This document shows positions 35,031 to 45,617 of a stretch of 64,000 nt of DNA, piece by piece. The DNA comes from Pacificibacter maritimus. GTDB lineage: Bacteria > Pseudomonadota > Alphaproteobacteria > Rhodobacterales > Rhodobacteraceae. The DNA is taken from positions 636,031 through 700,030 of the forward strand of contig NZ_RKQK01000001.1 of assembly GCF_003814915.1 (NCBI RefSeq). Direction: 5' to 3'. The position numbers were made by a program, and so were the translations under genes. Position 1 is the first letter of the stretch, and each line of letters begins with the position of its first letter. The notes under the pieces were generated by a model, which worked only from the letters and a program-made list of their open reading frames with translations, searched no databases and had not been told where the DNA came from.

Positions 35031-38121
<3,091 letters not shown>

Positions 38122-38137
<16 letters not shown>

Positions 38138-38550
38138 TCCGCCCTCCAAAAGTGTTCAAGCCCCGCGCTGATGCGCGTGATATCTGTATCTGTGCCGGCC
38201 AGTTCGAAACGATATAGAACAGGCACGTCACATTTGTTGGCAATAACATCAGCAGCGCGTGCAAATGTCGCGCCAAAATTGCGGTTGCCCGCACCGATGA
38301 CGCCGCGCAGCCCTGCGCGACGATTGGGATCATTAAGAAAGCGGATCACCTGCTTGGGGACCGCGCCGCGCCCTTCGCCATCTGCATAAGTCGGACAGAT
38401 CAAGACATAAGGGTGGGGCGCTTGGGGCATTGGATCTTTAGGGCTGATCGGCAGTCTTTCGATCTGCATCTGTGCAACATGCGGTGCGAGCTGTGAAACA
38501 AAGCGCGCCGTATTGCCCGAGGCAGAGGAAAAATAGATCAGACCCGACAC
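38122..38550 (-). CDS. nrdI: NrdI flavodoxin-like ribonucleotide reductase assembly protein
   Basis: This 142-residue FMN-binding protein supplies the oxidant that assembles the Mn-tyrosyl cofactor of NrdF. It has the flavin-phosphate loop [13 protein letters not shown] at the N-terminus and [21 protein letters not shown] in the middle. It starts five bases after the nrdH stop and overlaps nrdE. Confidence 0.95.
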
Positions 38551-38554
38551 AATT

Positions 38555-38776
38555 TTACGCCAATTGACCGATCATATCAGGACGAAACCCTGCCCAATGC
38601 GCGTCGCCGGCAATCACAACAGGCGCTTGGCGGTAACCAAGTTCCGTCACTTGCGTCATGGCCGCTGCGTCGAGCGTAAGATCGACCACAGTGTAGTCCA
38701 AGCCTTTGGCATCCAGCGCACGTGTCGTGGCGGTGCATTGTACGCAAGCGGGTTTTGAATAAACGGTGATAGTCAT
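38555..38776 (-). CDS. nrdH: NrdH glutaredoxin-like electron donor
   Basis: This 73-residue thioredoxin-fold protein reduces NrdE. It carries the CxxC motif as CVQC (residues 10-13, after MTITVYSKPA), plus the family's C-terminal block HWAGFRPDMI. The longer open frame (from 38848) is not used because AGGACG precedes the ATG at 38776. It is the first gene of the operon, behind the cobalamin riboswitch. Confidence 0.94.
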   Translation of the reverse strand: MTITVYSKPACVQCTATTRALDAKGLDYTVVDLTLDAAAMTQVTELGYRQAPVVIAGDAHWAGFRPDMIGQLA

Positions 38777-38877
38777 GCCTGTTCGTCCTAATTGGTTCGG
38801 GCGGAAAACAGGCTTGGGGCAGGGCAGTCCGATCGACAACCTTACCACGCCCCCATGCCCGCCGCACGGTTTCGTCT

Positions 38878-39060
38878 TTGTGTCTGGCAGGTCTCCTGGC
38901 TTGCGGGTCGAAGCTAGACTGACCTTCCCAAGGTTTCCCTTAGTGGTAAATTCAGTGTCGCTATCCGCTTACAGTTGCGGGGGCAGCCTCGGAATTGGAT
39001 CGAAATCCGCACCGAATTCACTTTTCACTTTCGACTCGCGTCAAAAGAACCATGACACAA
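38878..39060 (-). promoter_or_regulatory. Cobalamin (B12) riboswitch in the nrdHIEF leader
   Basis: Read on the minus strand this shows the full set of B12 riboswitch signatures: a GAATTCGGTGCGG arm, the GCTGCCCCCGCAACTG box (about 38977-38992), CACTG, GGGAAGG and the 3' CCAGGAGACCTGCC. The closing P1 stem pairs 38878-38884 with 39054-39060. The nrdH start lies about 100 bases downstream. B12 binding is expected to repress this B12-independent reductase. Confidence 0.92.
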
Positions 39061-39070
39061 GTACTAGTGT
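39055..39070 (-). promoter_or_regulatory. NrdR-box-like palindrome 1
   Basis: On the minus strand ACACTAGTACTTGTGT matches the ACACWA....TWGTGT arms of the NrdR box. It lies exactly 16 bases from a second such site, the usual tandem arrangement, and covers the 5' end of the riboswitch. Confidence 0.6.
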
Positions 39071-39086
39071 TATACGGGGGTAATTT

Positions 39087-39102
39087 TGTCAACATGTTGT
39101 GT
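39087..39102 (-). promoter_or_regulatory. NrdR-box-like palindrome 2
   Basis: On the minus strand ACACAACATGTTGACA has a perfect left arm and a partly matching right arm. It overlaps a TTGACA that could be a promoter -35 element. The 16-base spacer to box 1 also contains part of a TATAAC. Confidence 0.55.
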
Positions 39103-39239
39103 TGAGGTGGAGTGGAAAAAATATTGCCGTGTATTGAGAGTGATCAAATCTTCGGCGGTCTTCAATATGTAGCAAGACTTTCGCCAAGATGAAACGCCAT
39201 CTTGGGCCCCTTGATCATAATAATTCCCCTCAGGGTCGT

Positions 39240-39959
39240 TTAGCGCTGAATCCATTCAGAAATAAATTTTTTTGCCACGTCGCAGGCCTTTGCCAGAGAG
39301 TGCCCACGGGCAAGTGTGCACGCAATTGCTGTCGCGAGTGCACAGCCCGTACCGCGCTTATTTTGTGCGAAGCGCTCTGTGCAATAAGACTGTTCAGCGT
39401 CATCCGTGAACAAAGTGTCGCAACAGGTATCACCTTGGCCATGACCGCCCTTGATCAATACGGATTTGGCGCCTTTTGTACGCAAAAATGCTCCTTGCGC
39501 TGTCAAAGCTGCATGAGACTGCGCCACAGCCTGATTGCTTAGCGCTGCGGCCTCATCCAGATTTGGCGTGATCAAGGCCGACATGGCAATCAAACCGTCT
39601 AGCGCATGGATTTGTGTCAGCCGACCGCCCGAGCTGGCCCGCAAAACAGGATCAAGAATGACGGGGATGGTCCTGTAAGGCGCTAAAGCATCTTTGATCG
39701 CATTTGCGCAGTCTTTTGATCCAACCATGCCTATTTTTATAGCGTCAGGCGGGCCCTGTTCACAGGCTGCTGCAATCTGCGCATGAATCATGTCAGCTGG
39801 CAAAGGATGCAAGGCCTGTACAGACCGATTGGATTGCGCCGTAACGCAGGTCACAACGGGGCTGACATGACAGCCAAATTCATAGGCCACCGAAGTGTCG
39901 CAGGTGATCCCCGCGCCGCCACTGCTGTCTGTGCCGCCGATGATTAAAATGCGTGTCAC
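39240..39959 (-). CDS. thiD: Hydroxymethylpyrimidine/phosphomethylpyrimidine kinase ThiD
   Basis: This enzyme phosphorylates HMP and HMP-P to HMP-PP, the pyrimidine half of thiamine. The 239-residue ribokinase-fold protein has IIGGTDSSGGAGITCD at the N-terminus, LDPVLRASSGGRL in the middle and the anion-hole motif RGTGCALATAIA near the C-terminus. It is the last gene of the thi operon, joined to thiF by an ATGA overlap. No strong terminator follows, so read-through towards nrdH is possible. Confidence 0.94.
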   Translation of the reverse strand: MTRILIIGGTDSSGGAGITCDTSVAYEFGCHVSPVVTCVTAQSNRSVQALHPLPADMIHAQIAAACEQGPPDAIKIGMVGSKDCANAIKDALAPYRTIPVILDPVLRASSGGRLTQIHALDGLIAMSALITPNLDEAAALSNQAVAQSHAALTAQGAFLRTKGAKSVLIKGGHGQGDTCCDTLFTDDAEQSYCTERFAQNKRGTGCALATAIACTLARGHSLAKACDVAKKFISEWIQR

Positions 39960-42465: not shown

Positions 42466-45474
<3,009 letters not shown>

Positions 45475-45617
45475 GCTTTGGGTAGCTTGCCTAAATTTAC
45501 AAAGCAAGCCTCTTTTTCAGATCATATTCACTGAACGCGAAGATCTATTGTTTATAAATATGGTGGTCGGTATTTATGGAATATTCTTTATAAATTGAAT
45601 TAATATATTACTTTATA

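Follow-up and report, generated by a model that had tools for sequence, protein, structure and literature searches.

The closest described relatives of the locus reported here are cobalamin riboswitches that lie upstream of B12-independent isozymes. The nrdABS operon of Streptomyces, which encodes a class Ia ribonucleotide reductase, is under the control of a B12 riboswitch (Borovok et al. 2006, cited in PMC5962746), and the metE cobalamin riboswitch, for instance that of Mycobacterium tuberculosis, is treated in PMC11260477 as an OFF switch that works through L5-L13 kissing and translational control. ‘Isozymes of B12-dependent enzymes’ form a listed category of cobalamin regulons in a study that included 15 Rhodobacterales genomes (PMC3766115); its main text contains neither ‘nrd’ nor ‘ribonucle’, and nrdHIEF may already appear in its supplementary tables. 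We found no description of a cobalamin riboswitch on nrdHIEF in the literature searched, supplements lying outside that search, and an earlier listing is quite possible.

In the window, by which we mean the whole 64,000-nucleotide stretch of DNA that was analysed, a B12-independent reductase operon stands behind a cobalamin riboswitch, as in Streptomyces nrdABS, but the enzyme here is the class Ib nrdHIEF, where that of Streptomyces is class Ia. The metE switch shares the arrangement of a B12-independent isozyme behind a cobalamin riboswitch, and differs in controlling a methionine synthase rather than a reductase. Streptomyces belongs to a different phylum from the window’s organism, and species with the nrdABS switch reportedly also have a class II enzyme, as is the case here. 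The preliminary description of this DNA had stated that B12 repression of B12-independent isozymes (nrd, metE) is established elsewhere, and the Streptomyces nrdABS and metE switches bear this out; the regulatory logic is already established, and nrdHIEF here is another instance, for which B12 repression is predicted.

The gene set behind the riboswitch is identified as a B12-independent isozyme by nrdH, nrdI, nrdE and nrdF all scoring over class Ib cut-offs. On the minus strand, nrdH (38555–38776; TIGR02194, 93.8 bits, cut-off 85.75) encodes a glutaredoxin-like NrdH that would be lengthened by an in-frame GTG at 38848, and nrdI (38122–38550; TIGR00333, 133 bits, cut-off 74.65) encodes the class Ib assembly flavoprotein. 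These are followed on the same strand by the alpha subunit gene nrdE, an ORF from TTG (36014–38149; TIGR04170, 1223.7 bits, cut-off 750), whose product has as its best solved match chain F of 9l6o, a ribonucleoside-diphosphate reductase, and by the beta subunit gene nrdF (35031–36002; TIGR04171, 475.1 bits, cut-off 355), best matched by 8j4x, an NrdF2.

An Rfam cmscan of the whole window finds the aptamer of a cobalamin riboswitch (RF00174) within the leader of nrdHIEF, at 39069–38870 on the minus strand. It scores 118 bits, where the gathering score is 31.5, with an E value of 6e-29, and the match is full length (model positions 1–189 of 189). B12-riboswitch boxes on the minus strand of the nrdH leader had been proposed in the preliminary description at 38878–39060, which falls within this match, together with a covariance-model search as a check; the strong 118-bit match upholds the proposal. 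Full-length RF00174 matches are mostly of the adenosylcobalamin-binding type. The nrdH ATG lies 93 nt past the 3′ end of the aptamer, and the aptamer starts 170 nt beyond the end of a thiD-like gene (39240–39959; below its model’s cut-off). A thiamine-type gene run leads up to the nrdH leader in the window, and contains a TPP riboswitch (45356–45478, minus strand; 58.7 bits, cut-off 54.3) directly before a 630-aa ORF (43443–45335) that looks ThiC-like by eye. A whole-genome search gave two cobalamin riboswitches, the nrdH-leader element and one on contig 5 that precedes a 226-aa ORF, cobW and cobN; near the latter are cbiB, over its cut-off, and a threonine-phosphate decarboxylase match below cut-off. 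B12-synthesis genes are present in the genome, as seen around the contig 5 riboswitch.

The same genome encodes two class II (adenosylcobalamin-dependent) reductases over the TIGR02504 cut-off. The larger, of 1245 aa, is also over the NF005736 cut-off and its residues 15–939 align to the solved B12-dependent reductase 7b9p, while the 758-aa protein aligns to 1xje and retains the NPCGE stretch. A class II enzyme had been predicted from the window before the genome was searched, and these two genes, each with a solved homologue, answer to that prediction. NrdE is the only class I large subunit in the genome over the TIGR02506 cut-off. With a B12-independent reductase behind a riboswitch and two B12-dependent ones in the same genome, the cell probably keeps the former as a spare, produced only under B12 shortage.

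We consider it very probable that one explanation accounts for the locus as a whole. The nrdHIEF mRNA would open with a cobalamin OFF riboswitch, and plentiful adenosylcobalamin would bind the aptamer. In the ligand-bound aptamer, L5 would kiss L13 of a hairpin just downstream, and the kissed fold would keep the nrdH ribosome-binding region masked, with no class Ib reductase made. Class II enzymes would provide deoxynucleotides in B12-replete cells, and the operon would be expressed when B12 drops. NrdR-like boxes before the aptamer would add deoxynucleotide status as a second input.

The association of the riboswitch with nrdHIEF, first noted in the window, is found again in relatives. Matches to nrdI were obtained in 35 of 295 genomes of the window’s family, Rhodobacteraceae (34 over cut-off), and 30 of these 35 loci, namely the window and 29 of 34 others (17/20 and 12/14), have a same-strand cobalamin riboswitch upstream. 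Among the remaining five, L050 and L058 gave no cobalamin riboswitch match at E up to 1, L076 had no cobalamin match at its nrdI locus, L054 had a match of 29.2 bits, below the gathering score, and L078, where the nrdI match is itself partial, had none over the gathering score. In a second collection of named nrdI loci (the 80 best of 550), the riboswitch is present at 57 and absent from 23; the two sets overlap, with at least nine loci in common. A sequence pattern, which in calibration had recognised 25 of 27 loci known to carry the riboswitch and no locus of three known to be without it, called 52 of the 80 positive. The other 28 were examined by cmscan and five proved positive: L143, L151 and, with weak scores of 37–44 bits, L107, L128 and L135. 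All 28 of the pattern-positive loci that were put through cmscan were confirmed, and the other 24 rest on the pattern. Elsewhere in the Alphaproteobacteria, nrdI was found in five other genomes of a sample of 385 (four over cut-off), and flanks of 1.5 kb around it contain no riboswitch in any of them. The riboswitch is, however, carried at the nrdI locus by records named Stappia and Pseudovibrio (L156 and L165), so the arrangement is not restricted to one family.

By eye, an apparent decayed aptamer or P13-like hairpin can be seen at L054:2271–2412 (minus strand) and in the leaders of L050, L058, L118, L131 and L140. That riboswitch-less loci often keep such aptamer- or P13-like remnants suggests that the riboswitch is ancestral and was then lost at these loci. 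Five named records (L122, L138, L143, L149 and L150, with titles such as Nocardioides marinus, Lautropia and Brachymonas) hold an alphaproteobacterial-like nrdI, and L122, L143 and L150 carry the riboswitch; the title of L122 is probably wrong, and the other four could be mis-binned or transferred. Several loci have a second cobalamin riboswitch. At L065:2598–2797 (plus strand, 103 bits) it is directed away from nrdH and stands before an ORF that is Rieske-type-oxygenase-like by eye, where a B12-independent route may be controlled. Divergent second copies at L040:636–829 (minus), L044:2567–2763 (plus) and L047:2794–2984 (plus) precede ORFs that by eye resemble a metal-uptake (DUF4198-like) protein and BtuF-like binding proteins, and further copies lie close to nrdHI in the named genomes at L123:72–274 (plus), L096:1675–1875 (minus) and L145:1228–1429 (minus). 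In Paracoccus homiensis, a TPP riboswitch on the opposite strand (L107:1780–1874, minus) adjoins the weak cobalamin riboswitch (39.1 bits) before nrdHI.

Directly downstream of the aptamer, the window’s leader contains a hairpin (38853–38869, minus strand) with a 6-bp stem and the loop GGCGG. A script found a G(G/A)NGG loop right after the aptamer in all 30 riboswitch-bearing leaders of the family sample. Its stem reaches 4 bp or more in 25 of them and 3 bp or more in 29, with 17 different stem pairs among the leaders; shuffled leaders yield 0.58 P13-like hairpins of at least 4 bp, against the 25 observed. This hairpin is the expected P13-L13, whose loop is the predicted partner of L5. Masking of the ribosome-binding region was then modelled from structural ensembles in 29 of the 30 leaders, L063 being left out with a P13 of less than 3 bp. 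With P13 formed and L13 unavailable, the openness of the ribosome-binding region is 0.378, against 0.491 in shuffles (p = 2.4e-4). When P13 is blocked, the openness rises to 0.450 (p = 0.0025; p = 0.024 against the change seen in shuffles), a state not clearly distinct from that of shuffled leaders (p = 0.084). Ten of the 29 leaders open by more than 0.1 on P13 blocking and three close by more than 0.1. In the window’s own leader masking is predicted and switching is not, the value being 0.39 in all three modelled states. On average, the modelled leaders weakly fit a translational OFF switch, a fit that the model does not support for the window’s own leader. A possible hairpin just before the nrdH ATG in the window (38777–38813, minus strand) pairs arms at 38813–38806 and 38784–38777 in an 8-bp helix that 3 of 50 shuffles equal. 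The outcome of a best-helix search for a stem across the nrdH ribosome-binding site was mixed, with many leaders not exceeding shuffles, and this search was set aside.

Since L13 stands 59–100 nt before the nrdH ATG in the 30 leaders, the nrdH ribosome-binding site lies outside it, and this, with the window’s lack of modelled switching, speaks for control by premature transcription termination, for example Rho-dependent, within the 93-nt leader. The aptamer would then work as proposed, without masking of nrdH. PMC11260477 presents Rho-dependent termination as a possible sequel of translational riboswitches. Against it stands the P13-dependent masking across the population of leaders, and no terminator-like site was found in 38700–39300, a search for intrinsic terminators that is uninformative on Rho. 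We regard termination as possible but rather unlikely.

A different role for L13 would make it the ribosome-binding site of a translated leader, which B12 would hide in parallel to NrdR acting at the promoter; translation would yield either the product of a short nrdH-coupled ORF or, as in the window, an extended NrdH from the GTG at 38848. Of 71 leaders, 47 do have a GUG or AUG 5–12 nt past L13, where 14.3 would be expected. These 71 were obtained by merging identical leaders and leaving out 7 of the 57 riboswitch-bearing named loci, four where nrdH was not found by pattern (L143, L147, L148, L162) and three with no P13 of 3 bp (L107, L156, L164). The upstream ORF was not adopted: its frames relative to nrdH are evenly spread (17, 15 and 15), and the two alternative frames are open as often (69/94) as the proposed one (36/47). 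The leaders treated in PMC11260477 hold translated short ORFs, whereas a conserved frame is not supported in the nrdH leaders. We judge a ribosome-binding L13 improbable, and return to masking of nrdH by the kissed fold as the preferred reading.

Upstream of the aptamer, the second proposed input is represented by a pair of NrdR-like boxes on the minus strand. Box 1, CAACATGTTG (39090–39099), overlaps a TTGACA at 39092–39087, and box 2, CTAGTACTTG (39058–39067), starts 32 bp after box 1 and is off consensus in its middle. The boxes were named by a consensus and a spacing of about 31–32 bp that we take to be those of NrdR. The window’s pair scores 14 of 16, a value matched by none of 200 shuffles. 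Across the 30 loci the pair averages 13.9 of 16, against 9.65 in shuffles; no shuffle of 200 is as good in 23 of the loci, and 15 to 29 are as good in L055, L059 and L060. In 27 of 30 loci the best pair begins 29–32 nt ahead of the aptamer; it lies elsewhere in L060, L062 and L069. The 30 upstream regions share two cores with a spacing of 31 bp, CwAnATATTG around −35 and CwATATGnwG at the probable −10, and 29 of them have TTGAC at a fixed spacing from the aptamer downstream. Because TTGAC or a close variant of it served to align the loci, its conservation is partly by construction and that of the flanks is not. An earlier scan with a single 16-bp NrdR consensus (mean 10.3, against 8.8 in shuffles, with 27 of 200 shuffles as good as the window) gave way to the paired test, and a promoter scan found no consensus sigma-70 promoter in 38700–39300. 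If the boxes are promoter elements, the transcript would begin almost at the aptamer. Ribonucleotide reductase promoters are described as carrying two NrdR boxes, one overlapping the −10 (PMC4409342). The genome has an nrdR gene (TIGR00244, over cut-off), and this gene with two boxes 31–32 bp apart at a putative promoter matches what defines an NrdR regulon. The paired boxes look like NrdR boxes, to which we infer that NrdR binds, and the operon probably has two inputs, the deoxynucleotide state via NrdR and B12.

NrdR-like pairs also stand upstream of nrdH at the 23 riboswitch-less loci, where they score 12–15 of 16 with no shuffle control. This would suit a riboswitch that is a relic or barely functional here, with nrdHIEF really under NrdR at the promoter, as would the decayed or missing aptamers of some relatives (29.2 bits in L054; in 23 of the best 80 of 550 named loci, no match by pattern or above the gathering score). 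The window’s copy, on the other hand, is full length at 118 bits and retains P13-L13, and we hold a relic to be very improbable.

The preferred reading, an OFF riboswitch with a class II alternative, can be set against the distribution of class II genes. All 57 riboswitch-bearing genomes (27/27 and 30/30) have class II over cut-off, as do 18 of 23 without the riboswitch (best 80 of 550), which gives a Fisher p of 0.0014 with relatedness ignored, or 0.0056 if a genome with a broken frame (G693, L091) is scored as class II-bearing. Only NrdE-type matches, and no riboswitch, are found in Gemmobacter serpentinus (L105), Falsigemmobacter faecalis (L115), Sinirhodobacter populi (L118) and Pseudogemmobacter hezensis (L131), class II absences to be read with the proviso that draft genomes can miss genes. 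Fifteen of the 18 riboswitch-less genomes with class II are named Paracoccus (best 80 of 550). Class II loss is thus seen only without the riboswitch, and the riboswitch is often missing where class II remains. In the family sample 34 of 35 genomes have class II over cut-off, and the exception, G193, is also without the riboswitch; alone, this sample (30/30 against 4/5) is not significant (p = 0.14). Of 295 family genomes, 293 match the long NrdJ model and 275 do so over cut-off, the weak matches including possible other reductases, as in G193. With the NrdJ model found nearly everywhere in the family, class Ib is the accessory enzyme.

MetE, the one methionine route searched for, was not found in the genome, and methionine synthesis might therefore still be blocked if B12 were lost altogether. 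This weakens the picture of full starvation, and the class Ib backup may instead serve partial adenosylcobalamin shortage. Every genome seen without class II is also without the riboswitch, which makes the idea of an isozyme backup testable by natural variation. If the proposed mechanism is true, the choice between cobalt-based and B12-free ribonucleotide reduction would be made by an RNA that reads coenzyme B12, probably together with deoxynucleotides through NrdR.
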